Virus record (IMG/VR): IMGVR_UViG_3300042349_000296
Span: 1 to 36,004 of that record
Reading direction: 5' to 3' (one strand)
Source of the DNA: a virus
DNA: 36,004 bases
Position 1 is the first letter of the stretch. Each line of letters starts with the position of its first letter. Positions 797 to 36,004 of this stretch are shown here, one piece after another. Made by a program: the position numbers and the translations under genes. Under the pieces are notes generated by a model. That model was not told the DNA's origin, ran no database searches, and worked only from the letters and a program-made list of their open reading frames with translations.

Positions 797-853
797 AAAA
801 AAAAAAAATAAGAAGAAAAAGAAAGCTCCCTTCCCTTTTTAGGGGGAAGGGAG
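797..853 (-). terminator. Hairpin terminator after the spanin-like gene, with a 12-T tract
   Basis: CTCCCTTCCC (853-844) and GGGAAGGGAG (835-826) form a perfect 10-bp stem with an 8-base loop, starting 11 bases after the stop codon of the spanin-like gene. A T-rich stretch follows, ending in TTCTTA and 12 T at 808-797. Confidence 0.8.
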
Positions 854-863
854 TTTTAAAGAG

Positions 864-1322
864 TTAACGATTTACAACTACATAAGGTTTTTTAACCTTT
901 TGTAGTGCAGCCATCTCTGATTCAAGCTTAAGCATTTGCTGCTTAAGCCTTTGAATCGTTACCTCATTTTCTTGTGCTTCCTGCACTCGCAAAGAGGAAG
1001 AGTACTTGTACAAATCCACTGAGGTTTTGTACTTTGAAACCGCCTTATCTTTTTCTGCGATTTCTTTCTCCTTCTCTGCGATTTCTTTCTGATGCTCTCC
1101 TCTCAATATTTCTACTTCTTTTCTAATCGTTTCTTCAAACTTCTTAGCCTCACTTTTTTGTGACTCCAAGGCAGTTTCATGCCTTGCGATCTCCTTTGCA
1201 TGATCTTCCTTGATGTCTCCTACGAGCTCTTCCCTAAAGTCGTTACCCTTCTTCAAGCCAGCTTCATAACCAGCTGCAATCGAAAGGATCAAGATGAGTA
1301 CAGCCAATACAAACTTAAACAT
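864..1322 (-). CDS. Spanin-like (Rz-type i-spanin) coiled-coil membrane protein, 152 aa
   Basis: Residues 3-20 form one N-terminal membrane helix (FKFVLAVLILILSIAAGY). A long, highly charged coiled coil follows, with the near-repeat EIAEKEKEIAEKDK around residues 80-93. One inner-membrane anchor plus a periplasmic coiled coil beside holin and endolysin genes is the layout of an i-spanin, which joins inner and outer membranes at the last step of lysis. I found no lipobox-bearing o-spanin partner overlapping it, so the call rests on architecture and context. The start has GAAGGAG seven bases upstream. The ribosome site begins only a few bases after a hammerhead ribozyme (1340-1392), so cleavage would leave this mRNA with a short 5'-hydroxyl leader. 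A strong terminator follows. Confidence 0.6.
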   Translation of the reverse strand: MFKFVLAVLILILSIAAGYEAGLKKGNDFREELVGDIKEDHAKEIARHETALESQKSEAKKFEETIRKEVEILRGEHQKEIAEKEKEIAEKDKAVSKYKTSVDLYKYSSSLRVQEAQENEVTIQRLKQQMLKLESEMAALQKVKKPYVVVNR

Positions 1323-1339
1323 AACAATCTCCTTCGGTT

Positions 1340-1392
1340 AAGTGTTTCGCTCTTTCGAGCTCATCAGCATGAGCACACACTCATGGACACTT
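1340..1392 (-). ncRNA. Type III hammerhead self-cleaving ribozyme
   Basis: Every conserved part is present in order on the minus strand. Stem III 5' arm AAGTGT (1392-1387) is followed by C17 (1386), giving the preferred GUC cleavage triplet. Stem I is CATGAG (1385-1380), loop TGTGTG, CTCATG (1373-1368). The core CTGATGA is 1367-1361. Stem II is GCTC (1360-1357), loop GAAA, GAGC (1352-1349). GAA (1348-1346) leads into the stem III 3' arm ACACTT (1345-1340), whose first A pairs with U16.1. All three stems are fully Watson-Crick (6, 6 and 4 bp). Stem III is open, which defines type III. Cleavage is expected between 1386 and 1385. Hammerheads are known from phage and bacterial genomes; activity here is inferred from the sequence match only. 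Confidence 0.93.
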
Positions 1393-1804
1393 CACAGTGT
1401 TGATTTCGTCTTTTCACTATTCTTTTGAATAGTATACTACTTCGGCTTGCGCTCAAGTAGATCTGGATTTAACTTCTCAGTTATTTCCAGAAGACGTTGC
1501 TTTTAATAAATACAGTTGTTACACTAGCAACTTCTGTATTTAAGGAAAGCATACCTGATTCTCAGAGTCGGTTGTACTTGGATACAATACCTTCTGAGTG
1601 ACCTTTCCAAGAGGTCTACGATTCTGGTGGATCAGTACCAGTTACGTCTACACTTTCTTAGGGCAGTAGCCGCCCACAATTGATTTCTTAGGGCTCAATT
1701 GCATCATGCCCAGTTCTTTATTTTGGCGGAACCATTGCCAGATTTAATTTTATCGTTTCACAACGATATGGATAAATCACTACCAAGAACCCTTTTTGAT
1801 TCTC
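1386..1804 (-). ncRNA. Candidate large structured non-coding RNA, about 419 nt, 3' end set by the hammerhead
   Basis: This gene-free interval lies between a promoter-like element and the hammerhead cleavage site. Helices found by eye, in order: a three-way junction closed by GTTCTT (1790-1785) with AAGAAC (1718-1713), holding GATTTA/TAAATC (1778-1773/1746-1741) plus a 7-bp GUGA-capped stem (1768-1751) and TGGC/GCCA (1740-1737/1727-1724); two tandem H-type pseudoknots (1711-1677, 1675-1648); hairpins 1641-1624 and 1616-1600; a composite stem CTCAGA/TCTGAG enclosing TTGTA/TACAA (1598-1561); hairpin 1541-1508; TCTGGA/TCCAGA with a GAGA tetraloop (1491-1462); CTACTT/AAGTAG with a GCAA tetraloop (1460-1437); a 7-bp AAAA-loop hairpin (1433-1416); and ACACT/AGTGT with a GUGA loop (1400-1387). 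No ORF of useful length covers it. I do not recognise a known RNA class. The 5' end at 1804 is inferred from the promoter alignment. Confidence 0.7.
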
Positions 1805-1827
1805 ATATAAGATGCTGATTTTTCCGC
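1803..1827 (-). promoter_or_regulatory. 25-bp promoter-like element, copy 1 (before the structured RNA)
   Basis: Reads GCGGAAAAA at the 5' end and ATCTTATATGA at the 3' end, with a more variable six-base middle; this matches copies 2 and 3 over the same 25-bp length. It starts 14 bases after the terminator of the preceding gene. If transcription begins at the G after TATAT (1804), the transcript opens with a small hairpin, AGAATC (1803-1798) with GGTTCT (1791-1786). This copy also lies in a long inverted repeat: the 14-base arm ending at 1846 is repeated inverted at 1804-1791. Read-through RNA could therefore fold it into one large hairpin. The size and conservation resemble promoters of single-subunit phage RNA polymerases; that assignment is inference. 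Confidence 0.6.
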
Positions 1828-1840
1828 ATTTTATAAGAAT

Positions 1841-1862
1841 CAAAAAGGGGTCTTTCGACCCC
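1841..1862 (-). terminator. Rho-independent terminator of the 70-aa holin-like gene
   Basis: GGGGTC (1862-1857), loop GAAA, GACCCC (1852-1847) followed by TTTTTG. It is a perfect 6-bp GC-rich stem with a GNRA loop, starting 5 bases after the stop codon. Confidence 0.85.
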
Positions 1863-1867
1863 ACAAA

Positions 1868-2080
1868 TTATTTCAACTTTACGTCATAAAGACGCAAAGC
1901 GAAATAAAATGGAATTATGCTAAGCATAATCCCAATAACACCTGTCGCAGGAAGTGAGTATTCCATTGGAATACCTTGAACCTTGCCCACGTACCCGATC
2001 CCTGCTCCGATTGCCATTGAGAATGGCATAAGAAGCAAACTACGCCAGAATACACTCCACCACACTTTCAACATTACCAT
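1868..2080 (-). CDS. Two-helix membrane protein, candidate holin or antiholin, 70 aa
   Basis: The 70-residue product has two hydrophobic segments, about residues 12-32 (WRSLLLMPFSMAIGAGIGYVG) and 44-64 (PATGVIGIMLSIIPFYFALRL), with a short linker and a basic C-terminus (YDVKLK). Small size, two membrane helices and its position between a wall hydrolase and a spanin-like gene fit a class II holin or an antiholin. No sequence family is recognised. The start ATG at 2080 follows AAAGGAG by eight bases; a second ATG two codons later is also possible. It has its own promoter-like element (2123-2147) and terminator (1841-1862), so it forms a one-gene transcription unit. A holin of a different type is at 3827-4369. 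Confidence 0.6.
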   Translation of the reverse strand: MVMLKVWWSVFWRSLLLMPFSMAIGAGIGYVGKVQGIPMEYSLPATGVIGIMLSIIPFYFALRLYDVKLK

Positions 2081-2122
2081 TGCTGGTCTCCTTTAAAAAG
2101 TTGAAAGATAAGCTTTTGCCTA

Positions 2123-2147
2123 TCATATAAGATACCCCTTTTTCCGC
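2123..2147 (-). promoter_or_regulatory. 25-bp promoter-like element, copy 2 (before the 70-aa gene)
   Basis: GCGGAAAAA (2147-2139) and GTATCTTATATGA (2135-2123), with the same 25-bp length as the other copies. It begins four bases after the stop codon of the SleB-type gene. A transcript from the G at 2124 would begin with the hairpin GATAGGC (2124-2118), loop AAAA, GCTTATC (2113-2107). The ribosome site of the 70-aa gene follows about 15 bases later. Confidence 0.65.
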
Positions 2148-2151
2148 GTTT

Positions 2152-2550
2152 TTATCCGTAGAAAATATGGCCTTTCCAACGACCAAGATAAGCAAAACCC
2201 TTAGTCCATCTTGGTTTTCTTTTTACAGAATGAAAGTGTGTTGCATATCTAAACTGTTTTGGAACAGCATCAATAAACAACATCCACTTTTCTACTGTAA
2301 TATAAAACTCAATAGGTACAAATTTATTTTTATATTTCTGATAACCATCGAATTGACTGTCTTTTTGTACTACTTCGCAAACTGATGAATCACTTAATTT
2401 AGCTCTATTTAAAATTACCTTAGCTACAATAAGTGAACCAATCATGCCTTCTCCACGGCTTTCACCATAGAGTGTTTTGACTAAACAATCTGTGTCAGTA
2501 TCTCCAAAAGCTTTTAAGGAGATTAAGAATAAAATTACAAACAACTTCAT
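2152..2550 (-). CDS. SleB-type cell-wall hydrolase with N-terminal signal, 132 aa
   Basis: Residues 1-16 are a signal peptide or signal anchor (MKLFVILFLISLKAFG). The rest matches the SleB/Hydrolase_2 fold: LVKTLYGESRGEGMIGS at 23-39 holds the candidate catalytic Glu30 in YGESRGE, followed by VILNRAKLSDSSVCEVV, a QFDGY motif and the closing GRWKGHIFYG. Members cleave peptidoglycan glycan strands as lytic transglycosylases. Export by the signal would place it in the periplasm without a holin. The ATG at 2550 is chosen because GAGG lies nine bases upstream; a longer frame back to 2685 would have to translate the T25 tract and a terminator. It follows the 25-base T tract and ends four bases before promoter copy 2. 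Confidence 0.8.
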   Translation of the reverse strand: MKLFVILFLISLKAFGDTDTDCLVKTLYGESRGEGMIGSLIVAKVILNRAKLSDSSVCEVVQKDSQFDGYQKYKNKFVPIEFYITVEKWMLFIDAVPKQFRYATHFHSVKRKPRWTKGFAYLGRWKGHIFYG

Positions 2551-2563
2551 TATTAACATCCTC

Positions 2564-2616
2564 AAAAAAAAAAAAAAAAAAAAAAAAATAAGAAAAGGAA
2601 CCCCGAAGGGTTCCTT
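2564..2616 (-). terminator. UUCG-capped terminator followed by a 25-T tract
   Basis: AAGGAACCC (2616-2608), loop TTCG, GGGTTCCTT (2603-2595) is a perfect 9-bp stem closed by a C(UUCG)G tetraloop and overlaps the stop codon of the 34-aa gene. TTCTTA then leads into an uninterrupted run of 25 T (2588-2564), far longer than termination needs. The run ends one base before the ribosome site of the SleB-type gene. Confidence 0.9.
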
Positions 2617-2719
2617 AGAAGGCACCACCAGAGTAACCCTGGTAGTACCCATCCCGGTACGCTTTCTCGATTTCTTCTCGAGCAAGCCACTTTACAAACC
2701 GCTTCCAAAGTACTTTCAT
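2615..2719 (-). CDS. Small protein, 34 aa
   Basis: ATG at 2719-2717 follows GAGGAA with six-base spacing and the frame runs 34 codons to TAA. The product is basic and amphipathic at the N-terminus (MKVLWKRFVKWLAREEIEKA), then AYRDGYYQGYSGGAF. The GYxxGY-type end is common in tiny phage proteins, but I recognise no function. The stop overlaps its terminator, which supports a real, independently ended gene. It is the last gene of the GC-richer cassette that starts at promoter copy 3. Confidence 0.6.
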   Translation of the reverse strand: MKVLWKRFVKWLAREEIEKAYRDGYYQGYSGGAF

Positions 2720-2808
2720 TTAAATTCCTCGTGTAAATAGGATGGGCCGTTCGGCTGGCCCTTCGCCCGTATTGAGTAACAGACTTACGAAGTCCGGCTG
2801 TCTACTGA

Positions 2809-3189
2809 CTAGCTTACAAACTCCCAGTGGGAGAATGTAAAGCCATTGCCGCGCAGTTCTCCCTCTTTTGCAGGGGCAGGAACAGACACCGGCAACGCAA
2901 GCTCTGGCAAGTATTTGCCATTACTACGATACCGTATCTGTTCCCTCTGCTTGAGGTAACGCACAGCAATGTGCGCTGGAAAGACTCCAGCAACCATGTC
3001 AGCACCATGCTCATCAATCAGCTCGATCAGCTGATCGAGTGCAGCATGAGATTGTGCAGCAAACGTGAAGTTCACGTTAACTACATCAATCTCTTCGCCA
3101 CTCCAGCATGGGTACGCTTTGAGAGCAACCAATTGCTCTTCAGTCAAAGCGTGACGCGACAGCCACAGTACGCATTTGCGCTGTGACAT
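2809..3189 (-). CDS. Conserved-looking phage protein of unknown function, 126 aa, GC-rich
   Basis: The product starts SQRKCVLWLSRHALTEEQL and continues EEIDVVNVNFTF, then a helical stretch with LIELIDEHGADMVAGVFP. This looks like a compact alpha/beta protein. I recall similar short phage proteins with a VLWLSRH-type opening, but no function. The start is strongly supported by AAAGGAGG seven bases upstream of ATG 3189. Base composition is about half G+C, clearly above its neighbours, and several + strand frames are open over it; these are shadows caused by composition. Its leader holds two back-to-back hairpins (3205-3249). It is the middle gene of a three-gene cassette between promoter copy 3 and the UUCG terminator. 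Confidence 0.75.
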   Translation of the reverse strand: MSQRKCVLWLSRHALTEEQLVALKAYPCWSGEEIDVVNVNFTFAAQSHAALDQLIELIDEHGADMVAGVFPAHIAVRYLKQREQIRYRSNGKYLPELALPVSVPAPAKEGELRGNGFTFSHWEFVS

Positions 3190-3204
3190 TTCTGTCCTCC
3201 TTTG

Positions 3205-3249
3205 TGATACGAAATTGTATCATGTTGCCTACCTTGTTAGATAAGCAAC
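3205..3249 (-). promoter_or_regulatory. Two adjacent leader hairpins before the 126-aa gene
   Basis: GTTGCTTATCT (3249-3239), loop AACA, AGGTAGGCAAC (3234-3224) gives 11 bp with two G-U pairs. TGATAC (3222-3217), loop AATTTC, GTATCA (3210-3205) gives six perfect pairs and ends just before the ribosome site. There is no T tract, so these more likely stabilise or process the mRNA than terminate it. That role is inference. Confidence 0.5.
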
Positions 3250-3262
3250 CTGCTACAATCTA

Positions 3263-3382
3263 CTATTCTCCATATGCCCAGCGGGCATTGTAGTCATGCA
3301 CTCTTGCTGCCCATCTCAGGGGCAAAAAGGGCAAGATGGGATGCACAAGACAATTGTGCACAATGTCTTTGAGCTTAGTCAC
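3263..3382 (-). CDS. Small phage protein, 39 aa, GTG start
   Basis: GTG at 3382-3380 lies seven bases after AAAGGAG and opens a 39-codon frame: TKLKDIVHNCLVHPILP, then FLPLRWAARVHDYNARWAYG. The HNCLVHPxLPFLP and RWAxRxHDxNARWA patterns look like a small protein family I recall from many phages, with no known role. A longer frame back to 3556 would run through the endolysin terminator and promoter copy 3, so I reject it. It is the first gene after promoter copy 3, and its leader holds the hairpin GTCC-AAGT-GGAC next to the ribosome site. Confidence 0.65.
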   Translation of the reverse strand: MTKLKDIVHNCLVHPILPFLPLRWAARVHDYNARWAYGE

Positions 3383-3435
3383 GATTGTTCTCCTTTGTCC
3401 ACTTGGACTGATTGAGACAGGAGAGATTCCTATCT

Positions 3436-3460
3436 TCATATAAGATACCCTTATTTCCGC
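3436..3460 (-). promoter_or_regulatory. 25-bp promoter-like element, copy 3 (before the GC-rich cassette)
   Basis: GCGGAAATAA (3460-3451) and GGGTATCTTATATGA (3450-3436), the same 25-bp length and ends as copies 1 and 2. It follows directly on the endolysin terminator. A transcript from the G at 3437 would open with the hairpin AGATAGGA (3435-3428), loop ATCTC, TCCTGTCT (3422-3415), before the ribosome site of the 39-aa gene. Confidence 0.65.
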
Positions 3461-3496
3461 AAAATAAACCCTGCCAGATTTGCATCCGACAGGGTT
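3461..3496 (-). terminator. Terminator after the endolysin gene, GNRA-capped
   Basis: A continuous 13-bp stem (3496-3484 with 3479-3467, with three G-U pairs) is closed by a GCAA tetraloop and followed by TATTTT. It starts 7 bases after the endolysin stop and ends where promoter copy 3 begins, so it separates two transcription units. Confidence 0.85.
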
Positions 3497-3503
3497 ATTT
3501 TTA

Positions 3504-3830
3504 TTATCGTGATCTTTCAAAGTGAGGCTGATCTTTAAATGATTTCCAGTTACCACCCCATTTATTCTTAGGGTTTAATGATTCCCAGAAATCACCTAGC
3601 TCTTGTGGATAACAAAGCTTTCCATCTTTTGTAAAGTGAAGATCAATAGCACATTTATCAATATGCCTACTGTTTAAAGTTTTTGATCTCTTAGTTTTTA
3701 CATAAATCTCTTGTTGTTCTAAAGTTCGTTGTAATTCACCACCACGAATTTTATAACCAAGTTTAAGAGCTTTAGCGCCTAATCTTAAAAGATCTTCAAA
3801 GAAAGCTTCTTGCTCTTCTCCAAGAGTCAT
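3504..3830 (-). CDS. Endolysin, M15-type peptidase, 108 aa
   Basis: The product is a compact zinc peptidase of the M15 (VanY / phage T5 endolysin) type, which cuts the peptide stems of peptidoglycan. Visible motifs are GGELQRTLEQQ at 30-40, SRHIDKCAIDLHF at 54-66 with zinc ligands His56 and Asp63, and QPHFE at 101-105 with His103 as the third ligand. About 110 residues is a normal length for a single-domain enzyme of this kind. There is no signal peptide, so it needs a holin. The ATG overlaps the holin stop by the ATGA arrangement (3830-3827), which ties its translation to the holin. A GNRA-capped terminator follows. Confidence 0.88.
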   Translation of the reverse strand: MTLGEEQEAFFEDLLRLGAKALKLGYKIRGGELQRTLEQQEIYVKTKRSKTLNSRHIDKCAIDLHFTKDGKLCYPQELGDFWESLNPKNKWGGNWKSFKDQPHFERSR

Positions 3831-4369
3831 GACACTTTACCTTTCATCTCATTGATAACAGTAGATAACATTCTATCTTTACCTTGAGAAGACTTACTAG
3901 AACCATAGAAGAATGAAAACATTTGTGCTATTATAGTACCAAGTAAGAAGCCAAGAATAGTATCAGCAAATCTTACATTAGCATCAGGTATTTCTATAAA
4001 TGTAATACCTAAAATATAAATAGTACAAAATGTGCTCCAAGCTATTGCAAAGTAATAAATAAATCTTTTACTAAAAGTATCTTCTTGACTTAATGCTTGT
4101 ACTTGCATATTACGAGCATCTTGATCTGAGGCTAAACCTTCTTGTAAATATTGTAAAGAAAGCTGATCATCATTCTGTCTAAGTCTGATTAACTCTTCTT
4201 CATGATCCATTTCAGCCTGGCGTAATGCTGTAAAGTCAGCACTAGTTAATTCAGGTTTTGAGAGATCAATACCTGTCTTTTCAGATACCCAATCTTTACC
4301 TTTAGCTAATACAGCATTACCTAAAAGATTAAGTCCCTGGCTGAGTAAGGTTGCTACTATTGGAAGCAT
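3827..4369 (-). CDS. Probable holin, two C-terminal membrane helices, 180 aa
   Basis: Start is the ATG at 4369 (MLPIVATLL) with GAGG six bases upstream; the frame could open 19 codons earlier, without a comparable site. Residues 5-20 are hydrophobic. A charged helical region follows (about 45-95). Two membrane helices lie at about 103-125 and 135-155, and the protein ends FFYGSSKSSQGK plus a short basic tail. A DTILGFLLGTIIAQ helix followed by a GSSKxS motif is, as I recall, seen in phage holins beside endolysins. It would permeabilise the inner membrane for the M15 enzyme, whose start overlaps its stop. The upstream 59-aa gene overlaps its first 41 bases. Confidence 0.72.
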   Translation of the reverse strand: MLPIVATLLSQGLNLLGNAVLAKGKDWVSEKTGIDLSKPELTSADFTALRQAEMDHEEELIRLRQNDDQLSLQYLQEGLASDQDARNMQVQALSQEDTFSKRFIYYFAIAWSTFCTIYILGITFIEIPDANVRFADTILGFLLGTIIAQMFSFFYGSSKSSQGKDRMLSTVINEMKGKVS

Positions 4370-4508
4370 CGTTAGCCTCTTTTTGTTGTGCTTGAACTTG
4401 ACCAACAACCTTATTAAGAAGTACATTTACTTCTTTGAAAGGTCTTTCGACTAATGCATCTATAATACTTTGAACTTCTTTTTCATCCAATACAATAGTA
4501 TAAGACAT
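4329..4508 (-). CDS. Small conserved-looking protein before the holin, 59 aa
   Basis: ATG at 4508-4506 with AAAGAG six bases upstream opens a 59-codon frame ending in TAA at 4331-4329. The product opens SYTIVLDEKEVQSIIDALVE and continues RPFKEVNVLLNKVVGQVQAQ: a short strand, then two helices ending in a Q-rich stretch. I recall tiny phage proteins of this shape (VxLxxxEVQxIxxAL...PxKxxxxLxxKLxxQ) in the same place upstream of holin genes; their function is unknown to me. It overlaps the holin start by 41 bases in another frame, which suggests coupled translation. Confidence 0.75.
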   Translation of the reverse strand: MSYTIVLDEKEVQSIIDALVERPFKEVNVLLNKVVGQVQAQQKEANDASNSSNLTQPGT

Positions 4509-4573
4509 AATATCTCTTTCCTTATTAATGAATAAACTGCCTATAAATTACAATAATAAAGGGGGCAGTCCTA

Positions 4574-4589
4574 GGGTTAATTTAACGGG
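4574..4589 (-). repeat. 16-bp repeat with a GTTAA-A-TTAAC palindrome, copy 1
   Basis: On the minus strand CCCGTTAAATTAACCC, 10 bases after the stop codon of the 122-aa gene. An identical 16-mer is at 32397-32412, just after the RNA polymerase stop. The core is a near-perfect palindrome around one A. Confidence 0.6.
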
Positions 4590-4598
4590 ATAGGATAA

Positions 4599-4967
4599 TC
4601 ACTGAACAATTTCAACAAAGCCGGTTTCTGGAGTATAGTGCAAGCTATGTCCAGCATTTATAGCCATACTTGCTAAAATAAATTCATCTCCATTTGAAAT
4701 AATTTTTATTTTTGTGTTATGAGTAACTGTATCTATATTATGTACACTAAGGAAATCAATTGCTCGCCCAGGAACTTCAAGAGGCGCTGGACAGATTGTA
4801 ACATTAGTTGTACCATTTGTATCTGCCTTAAAACTCTTTTGAATTGACGGTATTCTGCCATCTAAGGATATTTTATCAATTACTGATACAAATACTTTCA
4901 TTGCAGTTGTACTATGTGCTTGTCCAAGCGAAATTGCTAAAGATTCTTTAGGCGTAATTATTAACAT
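4599..4967 (-). CDS. Small beta-rich protein, probably tail-fibre associated, 122 aa
   Basis: The product is mostly short beta strands: ISLDGRIPSIQKSFKADT, NVTICPAPLEVPGRAI, KIKIISNGDEFILASMAI, and it ends HSLHYTPETGFVEIVQ. There is no membrane segment or catalytic motif. Location after the fibre genes and before the lysis genes suggests a small virion decoration or fibre accessory protein, which is inference. The ATG at 4967 follows AGGAG. A structured, GC-rich spacer (4968-5101) lies upstream. Confidence 0.65.
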   Translation of the reverse strand: MLIITPKESLAISLGQAHSTTAMKVFVSVIDKISLDGRIPSIQKSFKADTNGTTNVTICPAPLEVPGRAIDFLSVHNIDTVTHNTKIKIISNGDEFILASMAINAGHSLHYTPETGFVEIVQ

Positions 4968-5101
4968 TTAATACTCCTGTATTAATTTTTAGACTATTGA
5001 AAATAGTCACTTCCAGGGGCCACAGAGACAGACGCAGAGTCAGCCCATGGCCAGGATAATGGGTTACCACTTACCCTGGCACACGGGCACACTCCGGCTG
5101 T
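4968..5101 (-). other. Structured, GC-rich spacer between the 111-aa and 122-aa genes
   Basis: CCAGGGTAA (5079-5071) pairs with TTATCCTGG (5059-5051) with one G-U to give a 9-bp stem. GTGTGCC occurs twice in 5080-5095. A perfect 7-bp hairpin with a three-base loop, GACTATT-TTC-AATAGTC, lies at 5007-4991, about 30 bases before the next ATG. G+C is well above the flanking genes. There is no ORF and no T tract after the hairpins. Confidence 0.45.
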
Positions 5102-5437
5102 TTATGGGCCAGTTTCGGGCACTACCGCCTGATCTCTAGCTACAGCCAATTGCATATATAATGAATATAGAATATTATAAAGGTCTTGATACATAATTTC
5201 TTCACCTGTTGGAAGTCCTGTTACTGGATCAAGTATATTTATAACTCGAGAGGGATCAGAAAATGATTCTTGTAAAGCTCCTTTTGGCTCTACTATCATT
5301 TTACCATTTCCTAAATCAATCGCTTCCTCTTCAAGAAATATTGCTAACTTATCTCCTTGAATTGGGTTTCTAAGTTCAACTTTATAACATCTTTGCCATG
5401 CAGTACCTACTACAGACGTTTCTTGATAATTTGCCAT
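5102..5437 (-). CDS. Conserved-looking phage protein beside the tail fibre, 111 aa
   Basis: The product starts ANYQETSVVGTAWQRCYKVE and continues NPIQGDKLAIFLEEEAIDLG, with an ILDPVTGLPTGEEIMYQDLY stretch and a helical end (YNILYSLYMQLAVARDQA). I recall similar roughly 110-residue proteins next to tail-fibre genes in other phages (NYQETSVxGxxWxRC opening, LDPxTGxPTG middle). Their role is not known to me; virion component or fibre-assembly factor are both possible. The start has AGGAG seven bases upstream and lies 15 bases after the fibre stop, so it is in the tail operon. Confidence 0.75.
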   Translation of the reverse strand: MANYQETSVVGTAWQRCYKVELRNPIQGDKLAIFLEEEAIDLGNGKMIVEPKGALQESFSDPSRVINILDPVTGLPTGEEIMYQDLYNILYSLYMQLAVARDQAVVPETGP

Positions 5438-5451
5438 ATTATTCTCCTATG

Positions 5452-8400: not shown

Positions 8401-11400
8401 AGTATTTTCAACATTACTTAATCCAACATCAGCTTTAGCTATAGCACTCCAAACAGGAGCAGCACTTATTGTACCATTTCCTGTTTGATTCAAGAACATT
8501 TTGGTAGTAGTTGTATTACCAGCTAAGAATGTAGTATCATTTACAGCATTTTGATAAGGCAATGAACCTAACAAGCCACCAGTAAGATCTGCTGCAGCTC
8601 CTACTGAAGGAGCAGCCCATGTACCATCTGCTCTAAGGAAGTTAGCAGTGCCTCCTCCGCCTATATTACTATTAGTAGTAAGCAATCCTGTTTCATCAAT
8701 TGTCATTTTTACTGTTGGAGCAGCTGTAGAAGATCCTGTATAAAATTCAAGGTTAGCTCCTACAAAACTAGCGCCTACAGCGGTTACTTTAGAACTTATT
8801 CTAGCTGCTTCTACAAATGCTGAACTTAATGCTCCAGAAAATCTTATATTACCTAAAGCATTATTTACAACAACGTTTCCGTATGTATTGATACCTGATG
8901 CAGAACTTGATCTTACAAATTCAATATTACCTGAACCTGTAGCAGCACTATTCCAAAAACCAATTATCATACCAGCATTTACAGCAGTTTGGCTATGCAT
9001 TTGAATTAAAGAATTGGCTGTTAAATAGCTGCCAGGAAAGTTTAATTCAGTATTGATTGTAAGTATGCCAGGAATATAAACAGGTCTATTTGTACCAGGT
9101 GTAATACTTAATGCTAATGCACCATTAGCTGTAAAATCTATTCTACCTGTAACTGATTGATAAATACCAGTATTAGGATTTCCTTCAAAGAATAATGACG
9201 GAGCTGTTGCACTAGTATTAGTTGGTATTTGTAGTTTAGCTGCTTTTAATGCTAATGTAGCGCTTGAATGTGTGTATTGAATACCAGCAGTGCCAGAGTT
9301 AGTAAGAATATCAATATTATTGGTTCCGCTACCTGTTTGAGCACTTAAAGCATTTCCTATAATAATGTTGTTACTACCAGAAGTAACATTAGTTCCAGAA
9401 TTGTAGCCTATTATTATATTATTAGTTCCAGTATAGGTTCCTCCAAACCCCGTAACGTTACCTGCGCCATTTCCTATTACTATAGAGCTAGATGTACCAG
9501 TAGCATTAGCTCCTATTACAATAGCTGAACTACAGTCATCTATTCCTATAGCTTGCGAACCAACAAAAGTATTATATTTAAACCCCGCAGTAAGAGCTGA
9601 AGACCCGGAAGATTGACCTATATAAACAGAGTAACCAGGTAAATAAGTACTAGATGAATTAATACTTGCTCCTATAAATACAGAACCAGAACTTACTGTA
9701 GTAGCCACATCTCCAATATTTGAACCAACTAGTATGTTGTAGCTACCTATAGAAGTACAATTATTTAGTATTTGATAACCTATAGCAGTATTTCCAATTG
9801 AAACACTAGTGGCTAAACTAAGGGTCCCCGATCCTATCAAGGTTTGTCCAGTTACTTGAACATTTGATGTATAAGTCTTCAGTACATCTTTTCCTAGAAG
9901 AATATTATTTATTCCTTTTTTTATTAAGGGACCTGTATCTCTTCCTATTGCAATATTATCGTTACTGCCTCCTAACGCGTTTACACTGGCCAAACTTTTT
10001 AAAGCATTAGTGCCTATTGCTACATTATTGGATTTAGTTGACGTACCTACTTGTGGAGACTGTAAAGCATATTGTCCAAAAGCTAAATTATTATTTCCAT
10101 AAGTAGAATCTACTCCACCGGTGGTTGTATCACCAATAGAATAATTATCTTGATTAGCATTACCAAATATTCTTACACCATCTCCTGTATCAAATAGGAC
10201 AGTATCACCAGTTTTTAATTGACCTCTAACTGTAACATTAGTATATTCAGCATTTCCATTACCTTTTATTTGCCAACCATAATATAAAGTATAAGTTAAG
10301 CCAGTAGGTGTACCAATTGCTGTTACTATTGCTGTTCCATCTTGTTTTGTCAATGTAAATGTTGTAGTTCCATTTGTAGTACTTATTTTATATGTAGTTG
10401 GATTAGTATATCCTGTAATGCCACCAGTGCCTCCTAATGTACCACTTATTGTAACAAGCATACCTGCATATAATGTGGTTGTAGCACATTGAAATGCACC
10501 AGCAATACTTGTAATTTGAACAGAAGAAAGAGTTGTACCTGATCTAAAAGTACTTGATTGTATTACTGAATTTACATCATTTAAAGTTATAGTATGAGAA
10601 CCAATTGTGCCTGCTACTAATTTTGCAGCAGAAATTTCACCTTCAACCCATCCTCCACTTATATAATATTTTGTAACTTTTGTTCCAGTAGTTGTATCAT
10701 ACCAAATATCTCCATTTTGGGGAGTTGATGGTGCGCTTGTTCCAGTTGTAACTATATTTTTAGTAGCGCCTGCAGCAGCAGTTGACTTATCTAATCTAAC
10801 TACATTTATAGTATCTTCATAAGCAATTGAATTATAAGTAACAATACATTTAATTCTTGCTCCAGATGCTGAACCAAAAGCAGCAGAAGTTAATGTATAA
10901 GTTGCTGTTGTTACGGTATTAGTGCCATCTTTAGACCATTGGTATGTTTGCCCAGTCATTCCTGTACAAACTGCTGTAAATATAATATCTGTAGATAAGC
11001 TAGCAGTACCATCTGTAAATGTAAATACAGCTTCTCTATTAGGACTTAAAGATACTGTAGGTCCAATATTACCTTGTTTACCTTTGGATAAAGAAAACTT
11101 TTTAGTTAAAGTCGTACCTTTTTTAGTTGCCGTAATTGTTACATCACCAGTATCTTGAGATAAAGCTGAGATTGTATAAATTTGGTTATAAGTTCCTGAT
11201 TGTGTTGTAGTTGTATTGTTCTCTGTTTTAGTAAATGTCCAATTTGCTGTATCATCTACAGTACCTAAATATACTGAGGCAGTGGTAACAGCATTGGTAA
11301 ACACTCCACTATTTCCACTAGAGTCAGTAGGTACAACAAAAGCTTCTTTTGTAAGTACCATTGTAACATCATCGGACAGATCAACTACTGTTGTTTGACC

Positions 11401-11431: not shown

Positions 11432-13339
11432 TCAACTTACACTATTTAATACGTCATCTGCGTAATAATCGCATTGTAAAAATGATCTTACTGCCATAGA
11501 ATCAGCTGTTAATAAAATACCAGGCCCAGCGGTAGCATCTGCGGTTGTTATACGTCTTAGTTTTCCACTTAACATTGATGCATTACTTACTGGAAAATAA
11601 GCATTTGCTGCAACAGTAGGTGCTGTATTGTCATCTTCTTTAGTAAGCCAAAGCTTGGTACAATCTTTTGGTAACCTTACAACTACGTTTGTAGTACTAG
11701 CTGATGCTACTTCGTAATATCGATAAAAACCTCCTGAGGCCGCTTTTACTCTAATTATATCTCCTGCTGCTAGACCAGTTACAGATACTGTACATGTAAA
11801 TGTTAAAGTCCCTGGTGTCCACGCAGTAGTTCCACTTAACGTGTAATCAGTTGCGCCAGTATCTAAAGTTAATTGCCTTGTTACGATACCTTGATTTGCT
11901 TGAGTAGAACACCAAAACATTTTCCCACCAGCAAAGTCACTTGTTGCTTGAGGCGGATATGCTTGTCCAGTAGCTGAAGTATCTAGCCATGTATATTCTA
12001 CTGTTGGTGTTGAATCAATTGTTATTGATGTAGTACCACCACCAGATGCTACAACATAATATCTTTCTCTTGCACCTAAGACTACTTTTACCAAATCACC
12101 AACTGAAGCTGTAAATGCTGTACCTAATGTAAATACTGCTGATGCACCTGTTGTATGAGAAGAAATAGTAGCTACACGTGTGGTATCAGGAACAGCTGCT
12201 CCTCTTTGACCACTATTTGTTATATAGCTCCATTTAAATGATGTGGTTTTTTGTGTTAAGTTCCAAACACGACTACCTCTAAAGGGAACTGGATATAAAT
12301 ATGTTGAACCGCTTGTATTTTTAAAAGAAGTAGTCGTTGTTGATCTGACCTCTACTCTTACAGGATCTGTCTTATCTCGTATTGTTATATAACCATCATA
12401 TGTGTCTCCTAATGATGAATCTGTAATTACACATTTTAATAATAAAGTTCCATTTACTGCAGCATCATAAAATACTACAGCCGCTGCATCTGATGCTGTA
12501 CCATCTGTAGGAGCATAAATTGAAACTGCATTTATACTACCAGTGATTACCTGTCCACCCGTTGCTAATAAGTTAGTGGTATCATTAAAATCACTGTTTT
12601 GAACTGCAGTACTGTTTTTAAATCGCCAAAAACCTTTTGCTACATCTAGGTTGTTATGATCTAACTGATCACTTGCTGCAAAAGGATATGCAAACCACTT
12701 GTATGTTAAATTTGTAGTATCTTTAGCACCACCTCTGTAAAGTTCTGCACCTACACATCCATAATTCATGCTTCCAGTTGAGCTATCTACTGACGGAACT
12801 ACAGTATCGTTTCCAACAAACTTTATATAAGTAGCGTTTGTACCTAATATTGTTAGTGTAAAAGGTATTGCTATTTGTATTTTTTGTTGCAAACTCGTTC
12901 TAGGATCAGTATATATTGCTTCAAAATAAATTGTTCTTATTTTTGTAGTAGCGTCTACAACTAAGTTATTTGCTATGCTTAAAGTTGGAGCATTTGTAAC
13001 TACAGAGGTTATACCAACAGCCCAAGAGGGCGTTGCTGGAGTTCCGTTTAACTCTGAACCACCAACAGTTGTACCCCATTTTGCGCTACTAATTGTAATA
13101 GTGCCAGTTTGCTCTACTTCGCCCGAAGTACCTGCAATATAAATCTTTGGTGTTAAAGTTAATGCAGTTCCACCAGCACCTGTATTTCTATTCGGATTAA
13201 ACTGGGGATTTGCTGAGCTATCGTATGTTTGCGATATACCATTAGCAGTATCTGAATATATCCATTTTACATAAGCAACAGTTGAGTCAAACTCATCTAA
13301 AACTGTTGTTTGTCCTGAACTAACAAGTAAATTAGCCAT
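11432..13339 (-). CDS. Tail fibre or tail-tip protein, 635 aa
   Basis: The N-terminus MANLLVSSGQTTVLDEFD matches that of the 1990-aa fibre, while the rest differs. The body is beta-rich with immunoglobulin-like stretches (LTPKIYIAGTSGEVEQTG, AAAVVFYDAAVNGTLLLK) and two similar units containing a glycine-rich YYVVASGGGTTSITID and a YRYYEVASASTTNVVV strand. These look like tandem domains. Its ATG overlaps the stop of the gpJ-like tip gene (TAATG at 13339), which ties its translation to that gene and supports tip attachment. It ends seven bases before the large fibre. It could be a short fibre or an adaptor; no enzyme motif is seen. Confidence 0.75.
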   Translation of the reverse strand: MANLLVSSGQTTVLDEFDSTVAYVKWIYSDTANGISQTYDSSANPQFNPNRNTGAGGTALTLTPKIYIAGTSGEVEQTGTITISSAKWGTTVGGSELNGTPATPSWAVGITSVVTNAPTLSIANNLVVDATTKIRTIYFEAIYTDPRTSLQQKIQIAIPFTLTILGTNATYIKFVGNDTVVPSVDSSTGSMNYGCVGAELYRGGAKDTTNLTYKWFAYPFAASDQLDHNNLDVAKGFWRFKNSTAVQNSDFNDTTNLLATGGQVITGSINAVSIYAPTDGTASDAAAVVFYDAAVNGTLLLKCVITDSSLGDTYDGYITIRDKTDPVRVEVRSTTTTSFKNTSGSTYLYPVPFRGSRVWNLTQKTTSFKWSYITNSGQRGAAVPDTTRVATISSHTTGASAVFTLGTAFTASVGDLVKVVLGARERYYVVASGGGTTSITIDSTPTVEYTWLDTSATGQAYPPQATSDFAGGKMFWCSTQANQGIVTRQLTLDTGATDYTLSGTTAWTPGTLTFTCTVSVTGLAAGDIIRVKAASGGFYRYYEVASASTTNVVVRLPKDCTKLWLTKEDDNTAPTVAANAYFPVSNASMLSGKLRRITTADATAGPGILLTADSMAVRSFLQCDYYADDVLNSVS

Positions 13340-32418: not shown

Positions 32419-35400
32419 TTAACCCACACCATACCATCCTCTATCATCAAAGAAATCTTGAGGTATTTCTTTTAAGATATCTTCTTCAGTTAATATATCT
32501 TCTAGCTTTAAAACTTTACCATTTATTTTTGAAACACCAGGTACTGGAATTAATCCTGTCTCTATTGCTTCATTTAAATATTGATCGTAAAGTTCATCTG
32601 GAAGACCTCTTGCTTTCATTTCATCTAATGTCATTTTAATAACATTTTTCTTAAGCATTTCAGCATAAATCTCTCGAAGCGCTTGTCTAGCTTTCAACAT
32701 ATCAGCAGCATTAGTGACAAAAGCATCATGAACTGTTGAGGTTGGAATTTTATTTTCTTTTCCCCACATATGAAATCTTTTAACAATCACAGCATCATTA
32801 GAATGGTTACCATTTACAGCAAAAGCTGTTCTTGCCTTTGTTGCATCAGCAATATCATTAATTTTACCTGTCTTGTTAGCTATTTGATCCCACCAAGAAG
32901 CCTCTGTTTTTTGGGCTACTTGTAAAATATTATTTACCCAATTACCATCTTTATCTTTATAAATTAACCTTTCTTCAAAAGTTTGAGTAAAATTTTGTTC
33001 TATTATTTTGCCATCAAAATTTACCCAAGGAACATTAGTCCATGATTTTGGCATTTTATTTGCATAAAACATTTCAAATTCAGTTAATTTTTGTTCTTTA
33101 CCTAAAGCTGCCTTTTTAATATCAATACTTGGAACTTTAATTTCAAATTTAAGAAACTTAGCTCCTGTTCGTCTATACTCTCGTGTTTTACTTGTCAAAT
33201 GCGTTCTAGGAATGTTTGACTTTACACCTAATAAAATATCAGCTAAATTTGAATTAGGATTCCACCAGCCAAATCTTTTAAGTAATTTTTCTCTAACAGG
33301 TTCATTTGCCTTTATCCCAACTGTTCTACTGATGTAATCTGGTAAAATATAACCTTTATCTCTATTTCCTCTTAATGCTAACTTTGTTATTTTTACCCAA
33401 TCAAAATCGGCATTTGAAGGCTTAGCATTTGCTAAATAATCTTCTGCAAGTCTACCAAAATACTTTGTAAAATATTTTAATACAGGTACTTGTTCAGAAA
33501 GATATTCACTCATAATACTGGCAATAGCTTTAAAATCATTTGGAGTAACAACTCTTTCATATGATAACGACATCTTTTCTACAAGATCTTTTGTTTGAGG
33601 TTGTAGAAAATAAAGCTGATCCATAATTTCATCACCTGGATCTAATCCTTTGTTAAATATATCTTTAACATTTTGTCTAAGTTGTCTTAATTCTAAAGCC
33701 GTTTCAGGATCAAATCTTTCATATTTTGCAATCTGAGCACTGATTTCATTTAATACAATATCTCTATCAGATGCTTTTACAACAAGTGTATTGCCATCTT
33801 TTTCTAAAACTTTAGATAGCTTACCTTCTACGTTAAGAACACCTGTTCTTTCGCCTGCACCATAAAATGTAACCATATTCTGAGCTTTTGCAGCTTTTCT
33901 CAAGTCTTTTTCTGATAATCCAAATTTCTTATTAATCTCCTTGAAACGAGGATCATTATAAGTAGCTGCTGCAATCTCGTCATAAAGTCTTCTTTTCTGA
34001 TTAGTAGGCACTACGTTAGAAAGTTCAGCTAACTGTTTATTTCTTGTTGTTAATGCAATGATTTGAGCACCAGATGAAGAAGCGTCTTGTTCTAATGCCA
34101 ATGCTGTTCTATATCCTCGAAGATTCTCCAAATTCTTTTTGCTATATGGATCCGTAGCAATAGTCCTAAAAATATCTTTAACTTGGTCTGTCATCTTAGC
34201 ATTCAAGCTAGCGGTAATATCCTCTATAGACAGTTTTTCTGCATTTGATATACCTGCAGCTTTAGCGGCAGCAGAAGCAGCTTCTCTATTTGTCTTACCG
34301 AAATATATACTAGACTCATCTTTAATAATAGTATCAGCACCAAACCTATTAACTTTTAAAGCTCTCTTTTGAGCTTCAATTGTAATATATATTTTATTTT
34401 TCGAACTAACACCTAATGACCTTAAATGTTCTTCAAAGAATTCACCTAATTCTTCTACAATTTGCCAAGAAATGTATTGATCTGTATTTCCTTTTGATCT
34501 CTCTAAAAATTTTCGCTTATTAGCAGCGATTTCTTCTGCAGACAAAACGTTTCCAGTTTTATGATCATATGTTTTGTACGTAGCTCTCTCAAATCTTTCT
34601 TTAGTTAGTTCTATATCATCTGTATGTAACCAAGAAACAGCCTTTTCTAATTTATTTTTAGAAATCTTACCGGTTGAGGCTAACTCTATTATCTCAGCTT
34701 GTGACTGCAAAATTTCATCGATTGTACCAATATATTTAGGATCGCTTTTTATGTTTACATCAAGTAATTTAATGAGTCCTGCAACATCTTTACGCTCATT
34801 TAAAAGAGATTCCGTAACTTTAGTCAAGGGCATTCCACTCTTGGCCTTACTTACAAGGTAATTATCTATTTTAGCTGTTTCAATTGCAAATCTTAAAAAT
34901 TTGCCCATATCTTCGCCATCAACTTGATGCAATGCTTCATTTTCAAGAATAGCTCTAATGTCATTAGGTTTACCTCTTAACATCTGATTACCAATCTTTA
35001 CAAGTTCTGGTCGAAGTCTTTCAGCAATTTTCTGACGACCTGTTATTGATAGTGAATTATATCTACCTTCAAAATTATCATTAAGACCACCTAAGAAAGA
35101 ACCAATTTGATCTTGAAAGTTTCTAAAATTTTCAGGACTAAAATTCTTTTCTTCAGCAGTATTCAAGAATGGACGAAATGTTTCTCCTGATTGTGGTCCA
35201 ATAAGGCCTCTATCATAGATACGTGCTCTATGATCTACAAATGGATGATTAGAAAATGAGTTACCACTTTTTCTTAACCAGTCCATTGCTTTGAAACGTT
35301 CGTATGCATCACCTCTTGAACTGATATATTTTTTATATTCATTCAAATCATTATAATATTTAGCTTTTCCTCGGTCATCTTCAAAATATAAAAGTTTTTG

Positions 35401-36004
35401 AGTGAAATCATAAAAGTCTTCATCAATTTTATATTTTGTTTTAGCTGCCCAATTCAAAGCATTTACAAGATCTTTATCAACAAATTCTTCAGGGAAATCA
35501 CTAAAACTACTAGTAGATGTAATAGGGATTCTTGTATCTTCATATCCTAAAATACCTCGATCAATAAAATACGTTTTATAACCTTCTCTAAAAATTAATC
35601 TATTTTTATCATTAGTTACACTAACTCGTAATCCTAGTTCTACTTTACGGGTTAGTTGAGCATAATCCTGTATTCTAGGATCAGTAACACGAATATTATA
35701 AGATAAAGTATCATAATAAGGACCAAAATATTGTCCACTTAATCTACTTTTCATACGTCTCTTTTGTACACCAAAAGTCTCTATTTCATAAAACTTTTTA
35801 GCAGAAGACGTCTCTAATATTGCTGTACCTAAATCAAACCACTCCTTTCTGTTACCATTTAAGTTTGCTAAGTTATAGAGGTCTCTACCCAAAGCAACAG
35901 CTAATTGATCTTTATCTGGTGTATCTGCTAAACCTAATCTATTTGCAAATTTTAAATAAAACTGTTGTAATTCAGTATCCGTTAAACGTTTCCAAATTAA
36001 GGGA
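32419..36004 (-). CDS. Single-subunit T7-family RNA polymerase, 5' end beyond the window (virion RNA polymerase-like)
   Basis: The frame is open to the right edge: the TTG at 35892-35890 is only an internal codon, preceded by in-frame sequence containing WKRLTDTELQQFYLKFANRL. Counting from that TTG as residue 1, DHRAR (220-224) followed by IYDRGLIGPQSGETF matches the T/DxxGR motif. DASSSGAQ (603-610) is motif A with metal-binding Asp603. RKAAKAQNMVTFYG (665-678) is motif B with Lys669 and Tyr677 at the T7 spacing. STVHDAF (1052-1058) is motif C with Asp1056. The C-terminal stretch LPDELYDQYLNEAIE resembles the T7 end. DxxGR to A (383 residues) and B to C (386) are far longer than in T7, so there are large insertions. 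It is transcribed just before scaffold and capsid genes, which suggests it may be packaged like N4 gp50; that is inference. Confidence 0.92.
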   Translation of the reverse strand, partial: PLIWKRLTDTELQQFYLKFANRLGLADTPDKDQLAVALGRDLYNLANLNGNRKEWFDLGTAILETSSAKKFYEIETFGVQKRRMKSRLSGQYFGPYYDTLSYNIRVTDPRIQDYAQLTRKVELGLRVSVTNDKNRLIFREGYKTYFIDRGILGYEDTRIPITSTSSFSDFPEEFVDKDLVNALNWAAKTKYKIDEDFYDFTQKLLYFEDDRGKAKYYNDLNEYKKYISSRGDAYERFKAMDWLRKSGNSFSNHPFVDHRARIYDRGLIGPQSGETFRPFLNTAEEKNFSPENFRNFQDQIGSFLGGLNDNFEGRYNSLSITGRQKIAERLRPELVKIGNQMLRGKPNDIRAILENEALHQVDGEDMGKFLRFAIETAKIDNYLVSKAKSGMPLTKVTESLLNERKDVAGLIKLLDVNIKSDPKYIGTIDEILQSQAEIIELASTGKISKNKLEKAVSWLHTDDIELTKERFERATYKTYDHKTGNVLSAEEIAANKRKFLERSKGNTDQYISWQIVEELGEFFEEHLRSLGVSSKNKIYITIEAQKRALKVNRFGADTIIKDESSIYFGKTNREAASAAAKAAGISNAEKLSIEDITASLNAKMTDQVKDIFRTIATDPYSKKNLENLRGYRTALALEQDASSSGAQIIALTTRNKQLAELSNVVPTNQKRRLYDEIAAATYNDPRFKEINKKFGLSEKDLRKAAKAQNMVTFYGAGERTGVLNVEGKLSKVLEKDGNTLVVKASDRDIVLNEISAQIAKYERFDPETALELRQLRQNVKDIFNKGLDPGDEIMDQLYFLQPQTKDLVEKMSLSYERVVTPNDFKAIASIMSEYLSEQVPVLKYFTKYFGRLAEDYLANAKPSNADFDWVKITKLALRGNRDKGYILPDYISRTVGIKANEPVREKLLKRFGWWNPNSNLADILLGVKSNIPRTHLTSKTREYRRTGAKFLKFEIKVPSIDIKKAALGKEQKLTEFEMFYANKMPKSWTNVPWVNFDGKIIEQNFTQTFEERLIYKDKDGNWVNNILQVAQKTEASWWDQIANKTGKINDIADATKARTAFAVNGNHSNDAVIVKRFHMWGKENKIPTSTVHDAFVTNAADMLKARQALREIYAEMLKKNVIKMTLDEMKARGLPDELYDQYLNEAIETGLIPVPGVSKINGKVLKLEDILTEEDILKEIPQDFFDDRGWYGVG

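Follow-up and report, generated by a model that had tools for sequence, protein, structure and literature searches.

A gene-free stretch on the minus strand of a phage genome is most economically read as a discrete structured RNA that acts in trans, with its 5' end set by a promoter and its 3' end set by a ribozyme. We estimate a probability of roughly one half (about 0.52) that this RNA is transcribed together with the spanin-like gene behind it, released by a hammerhead ribozyme as a molecule of ~420 nt, and then persists and acts in trans; release as a ~420-nt molecule is its most likely fate. This reading is supported by the fold z score, three pseudoknots, the hammerhead core, the order of the unit, hammerheads and structured RNAs in related phages, and compensatory base pairs between two relatives (L228 and L201). 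The fold and the borders of the RNA are well supported.

The window, meaning the whole stretch of DNA analysed, is a virus record of 36,004 bases from a phage of an uncultured group. Its capsid protein shares 55% identity with the EBPR siphovirus 1 capsid protein and about 41% with the one from phage DSS3_VP1, and 541 contigs in IMG/VR are related to it. One related contig was assigned to a gammaproteobacterial metagenome bin, a weak hint at the host. DSS3_VP1 itself carries a group I intron (L005 5201-5417, 93.9 bits) that separates two pieces annotated as terminase. The genes surrounding the RNA all lie on the minus strand and together form a lysis region, and the unit runs in the order terminator, phage-type promoter, RNA, type III hammerhead, spanin-like gene, terminator. 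The main features are as follows:

32419-36003, minus strand: single-subunit (T7/N4-type) RNA polymerase domain protein, extending past the contig edge (Pfam RNA_pol E 1.1e-14; phrog_414 E 3.2e-22)
3504-3830, minus strand: peptidase M15-type endolysin
2152-2685, minus strand: cell-wall hydrolase
1868-2080, minus strand: small membrane protein
1847-1862, minus strand: intrinsic-terminator-like hairpin (GGGGTC GAAA GACCCC TTTTT) that would end the upstream transcript
1790-1851, unstranded: near-perfect inverted repeat spanning the promoter, arms CCCTTTTTGATTCT / AGAATCAAAAAGGG (direct reading, self-match, long hairpin in cmscan)
1803-1827, minus strand: 25-base phage-family promoter GCGGAAAAATCAGCATCTTATATGA (motif count against shuffles, and relatives)
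1386-1804, minus strand: structured non-coding RNA of about 419 nt (gene-free, fold z)
1339-1393, minus strand: type III hammerhead ribozyme that would cut between 1386 and 1385 (Hammerhead_3, 45.2 bits, E 2.1e-8)
864-1322, minus strand: spanin-like protein of 152 aa, an N-terminal membrane helix followed by a charged coiled coil
826-853, minus strand: terminator-like hairpin closing the unit after the spanin-like gene

The 152-aa protein yielded no confident family match, and we call it spanin-like on the strength of its predicted membrane helix and coiled coil.

To begin with the stretch itself, no minus-strand frame within 1386-1804 is open for more than 35 codons, and the sole open reading frame of at least 50 aa that touches it is a plus-strand frame overlapping its edge (1179-1403); the sequence-only reading that it holds no plausible gene is thus upheld. 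The strong folding noted in that reading was also confirmed. The minus strand from 1804 to 1386 had a minimum free energy of -128.6 kcal/mol (z -6.9, about -6 to -7; 0 of 100 shuffles equalled it), against z scores of -1.8 to +0.9 for eight equally long coding controls from the same window, and z fell to -8.0 when the ribozyme was folded with it. The plus strand likewise folds strongly (z -6.7), which perfect hairpins would lead one to expect; promoter, ribozyme and gene direction fix the RNA strand as minus. The stretch had been described as rich in G+C; its value of 0.39 does exceed the 0.34 of the whole window, but the adjacent 1805-5451 stands at 0.38, so the enrichment is only slight.

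At the 5' border, where a promoter-like start had been proposed, we found that GCGGAAAAATCAGCATCTTATATGA occurs three times in the window (0 expected in shuffles), is present in most fully retrieved relatives, and lies at no fewer than about 157 distinct places in related contigs, mostly shortly upstream of a gene. Transcription would start at about 1804-1800. Since the window encodes a single-subunit RNA polymerase, the promoter is likely read by the phage's own polymerase, and the 32419-36003 protein is the candidate reader. By analogy with N4, this protein could be a virion polymerase; its gene adjoins the scaffold and capsid genes. Through the inverted repeat, the RNA begins with the complement of the upstream terminator tail. 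L253 (about 11785-11830) also has a long inverted repeat across a phage promoter, so that a new transcript there would start with the complement of the preceding transcript's tail.

At the 3' border, the proposal of a ribozyme-set end agrees with a predicted type III hammerhead in which every core base is present (CUGAUGA, stem II GCUC-GAAA-GAGC, GAAA, cut after GUC). Stem I has 6-7 bp, stem III has 5 bp and is open, and the cut site is of the NUH type. The score of 45.2 bits misses the RF00008 gathering score of 48.5 by 3.3 bits, and we call the ribozyme a hammerhead because its core and stems fit, not on the Rfam cutoff. Stem III and the 3'-terminal hairpin of the RNA are mutually exclusive, with the hairpin slightly favoured (-16.9 vs -14.6 kcal/mol, secondary structure only). 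The hairpin could drive product release or could act as a brake on the ribozyme. Both the score below the cutoff and the slight preference for the hairpin count against our best explanation. The earlier claim that the RNA is a product in its own right holds in part: a promoter on the 5' side and a predicted hammerhead on the 3' side make a discrete product likely.

The arrangement at this border also bears on the strongest rival, a long structured 5' leader acting only in cis, whose fold and hammerhead would govern the spanin-like mRNA in its timing, stability or translation, with the released piece as a by-product. The unit has two parts, with the RNA immediately ahead of its one gene; a ribosome site follows just downstream of the ribozyme, and the competition between stem III and the leader hairpin could serve as a switch. 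Relatives also have hammerheads between ordinary genes, as do prophages in general (PMC3088659), and a gene's leader would present a similar picture to what we observe. Against this, cutting would take the leader off the mRNA, and leaders behind the same promoter are mostly 20-60 nt long, compared with 420 nt of pseudoknot-rich RNA here. We consider a cis-only leader somewhat unlikely and favour a trans-acting RNA over a leader of the lysis gene.

Within the RNA, we assigned the following parts, from 5' to 3':

1741-1778, minus strand: 5' hairpin GAUUUA..UAAAUC with a GUGA tetraloop at 1761-1758 (predicted structure)
1713-1740, minus strand: pseudoknot 1, UGGC AAUG GUUC C GCCA AAAUAAA GAAC (pseudoknot scan)
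1677-1711, minus strand: pseudoknot 2, GGGC AUGAUG CAAUUGA GCCC UAAGAAA UCAAUUG (pseudoknot scan)
1648-1675, minus strand: pseudoknot 3, GGGC GG CUAC U GCCC UAAGAAAGU GUAG (pseudoknot scan)
1600-1616, minus strand: hairpin GACCU[CUUGGAA]AGGUC, with a loop complementary to the loop of the hairpin that follows
1561-1598, minus strand: hairpin whose loop UCCAAG is complementary to CUUGGA
1499-1550, minus strand: long hairpin GCUUU..AAAGC
1407-1496, minus strand: four-way junction domain, a closing helix and three hairpins with loops GAGA (1478-1475), GCAA (1450-1447) and AAAA
1387-1400, minus strand: 3'-terminal hairpin ACACU GUGA AGUGU, the final 14 bases ahead of the cut (predicted structure)

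All four GNRA hairpins that had been read by eye are present (GUGA 1761-1758, GAGA 1478-1475, GCAA 1450-1447, GUGA 1395-1392). A junction near the 3' end had been drawn as three-way; the junction is there (1407-1496), but a four-way drawing fits better. Two elements were absent from the sequence-only reading: the run of three abutting H-type pseudoknots (1740-1648) and a pair of perfectly complementary 6-nt loops in neighbouring hairpins (1611-1606 with 1582-1577). The motifs were spotted by eye before the thresholds for both were fixed, and energies in the pseudoknot scan come from simple stacking terms.

The pseudoknots measure 28, 35 and 28 nt, and the second and third have their first stem and the start of the linker in common. 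Under the same strict rule, 0 of 1000 dinucleotide shuffles contained three (mean 0.27, maximum 2). Such a run raises the idea that the RNA is a decoy, diverting a host defence that binds or cuts RNA; its tandem pseudoknots might, for instance, soak up a type III toxin, and phage PhiTE does evade ToxIN by means of 36-nt pseudo-ToxI repeats (PMC3475682). Here, however, the units differ in sequence and length and, unlike ToxI, are not sequence repeats; Rfam returned no antitoxin RNA match, so that membership in the type III antitoxins (ToxI and kin) was rejected; and the pseudoknots make up only about a quarter of the RNA. We regard a decoy as very unlikely.

The complementary loops CUUGGA and UCCAAG could form a kissing-loop pair. 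Under strict criteria such a pair appeared in 5 of 3000 shuffles; under a loose rule that allows short stems it appeared in 110 of 200, which is not significant, and because more than half of the shuffles have one, the pair is suggestive only. A special case of our best explanation builds on it: the RNA would form a homo-oligomer through its complementary loops, as do GOLLD, ROOL or the phi29 packaging RNA. The loops sit in adjacent hairpins that differ greatly in length, which seems an awkward geometry for contact within one molecule, a relative (L201) has a similar pair of hairpin loops (CUAGCA and UGCUAG), and kissing loops join chains in GOLLD and ROOL (PMC12286853). On the other side, neither sequence nor model matches the GOLLD or ROOL families, the RNA is shorter than GOLLD, and the reading rests on one statistically weak loop pair. 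We find an oligomer of this kind quite doubtful.

Taking the trans-acting RNA as the preferred reading, we propose the following course. The RNA stretch and the spanin-like gene would be co-transcribed from the phage promoter, probably late in infection and probably by the phage single-subunit RNA polymerase. The hammerhead would then cut the transcript at 1386/1385 into a ~420-nt RNA with a 5' triphosphate and a 2',3'-cyclic-phosphate 3' end, and a spanin-like mRNA that starts with a 5'-OH. Once cleaved, the ~420-nt RNA could close its 3' end into ACACU-GUGA-AGUGU, using the hammerhead stem III strand, which would promote product release and protect the end. The RNA would persist as a compact particle of three stacked pseudoknots, the junction domain and two hairpins, the loops of which could kiss within or between molecules. 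It would most likely act in trans, as a structural RNA or as a ribonucleoprotein scaffold.

We then searched for known families and homologues. The RNA matched no Rfam family, the GOLLD, ROOL and OLE covariance models included, even at an E value of 10. This bears out the view that it belongs to no recognised family, and a possible kinship with GOLLD, ROOL or OLE was not borne out. A tmRNA and a tRNA were both rejected by ARAGORN and Rfam, and ARAGORN found no tRNA anywhere in the window. No homologue was detected by blastn on phages and plasmids, by blastn and nhmmer on about 3 Mb of related loci, by blastn including loci added later, or by DNA searches of 34 and 48 whole records. A single-sequence covariance model of the 3' 175 nt, which is weak and omits pseudoknots, found nothing in 2.1 Mb and 50 whole records. 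Overall, these searches covered more than 100 related records, many of them fragments, and near-identical records may escape them. The best match (L364, E 5.5e-4) is short, reads as coding and has no promoter or hammerhead nearby, and the pattern GCCCTAAGAAA, found twice in viral contigs, belongs to unrelated repeats. As no homologue was found, the window RNA itself has no covariation support, a point against our best explanation.

Evidence from relatives comes instead from comparable borders and sites. Hammerheads recur at transcript boundaries across related phages: type III hammerheads with a loop much like that in the window follow stop codons in L196, L202 and L176, type I hammerheads occur in L124 and L277, and three further type-I-like motifs were read by eye in G004. 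L188 has, on its reverse complement at about 2320-2440, a phage tRNA (anticodon TGT) whose CCA lies no more than a few bases ahead of a type I hammerhead, and the ribozyme may help form the tRNA 3' end. Phage hammerheads have been proposed to divide long transcripts into units (PMC3088659), and release of the window RNA is plausible because the boundary hammerheads of its relatives fit this proposal. A compact pseudoknot motif, AGACCTGAG(C/T)AGGTCTTTAAAANGCTC, was also seen at transcript ends before hammerheads or promoters (L196, L202, L176, L185 and L228), with apparent covariation in its second stem.

Comparable sites in relatives hold different structured RNAs, behind the same promoter in L228 and G004 and in the same promoter-led unit in L201. 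We call these RNA B; the three copies are:

G004 (L185) 2350-2880: about 475 nt
L228 14603-14250, minus strand: about 350 nt
L201 4700-4980

The copies share sequence (that of G004 in part) and contain a pseudoknot, and RNA B has no Rfam match. Of 59 predicted pairs compared between L228 and L201, 7 differ at both positions yet still pair, in a comparison of two sequences only. No canonical hammerhead was found at the RNA B 3' end; the G004 RNA ends in a weak GAAA/stem pattern, which has no CUGANGA core and was not counted. We rejected membership of the window RNA in RNA B, as its similarity to the L228, L201 and G004 copies consists of short chance-level matches only.

Further structured RNA candidates lie in L191 and L246 (z -3.0 and -4.2). 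The long leaders of G011 and L178 read as coding, and those of L327 and L340, non-coding behind the promoter, fold no or barely better than shuffles (z -0.4 and -1.8). L340 (reverse complement, 9427-10080) carries, in three copies, a module with tandem pseudoknots (ACCCACCUAUGGGUUAAAUAGG) behind a promoter-like element. The 20-nt pattern CCCATCTGAAATATGGTGGG was tried as an RNA B marker and proved to be a hairpin of wide occurrence, with exact copies in many phage contigs that seem unrelated (L277, L278, L279-L288, L201, L228 and L185), often just past stop codons. It is preceded by an H-type pseudoknot ending in GGAA in L228, L277, L278 and G004, and had no Rfam match in the contigs tested. 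A broader idea, which we hold to be improbable, is that large ornate RNAs have arisen as a set in this phage group, with the window RNA as one class; the phage polymerase would make them in the lysis region, one or more would be trimmed by their own hammerhead, and complementary loops would join them into RNA particles that act late in infection.

Finally, we compared the RNA with known systems. Like ToxI and phage pseudo-ToxI, it places short tandem pseudoknots on a single transcript, but these are of unequal length, are not repeats and lie within a larger fold. RNA B resembles it in sitting at a comparable place downstream of a promoter of the same type, in size, in having a pseudoknot, in lacking an Rfam match and, in L201, in its complementary loops; it differs in having no sequence similarity to the window RNA and no canonical hammerhead at its 3' end. 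The occurrence of other structured RNAs at comparable places in this phage group, together with a compact size that suits in vitro work, makes the window RNA a tractable case for the function of such RNAs. GOLLD and ROOL are likewise phage-encoded, long and non-coding, with pseudoknots and complementary loops, and GOLLD levels rise during lysis (PMC12286853). In contrast, the window RNA lacks an Rfam match, measures ~420 nt where many GOLLD RNAs exceed 800 nt, has no tRNA in its window, has a 3' end predicted to be set by a hammerhead, and adjoins a spanin-like gene. Large structured phage RNAs of this sort are few, and the window RNA adds one with borders defined by a promoter and a ribozyme. 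As with the prophage hammerheads that flank genes (PMC3088659), the ribozyme is an intergenic phage hammerhead expected to split a long transcript, here of type III with a canonical core; unlike them, it would free a large non-coding RNA and not just an mRNA, which suggests that phage hammerheads may serve to trim non-coding RNAs, perhaps tRNAs, to length.
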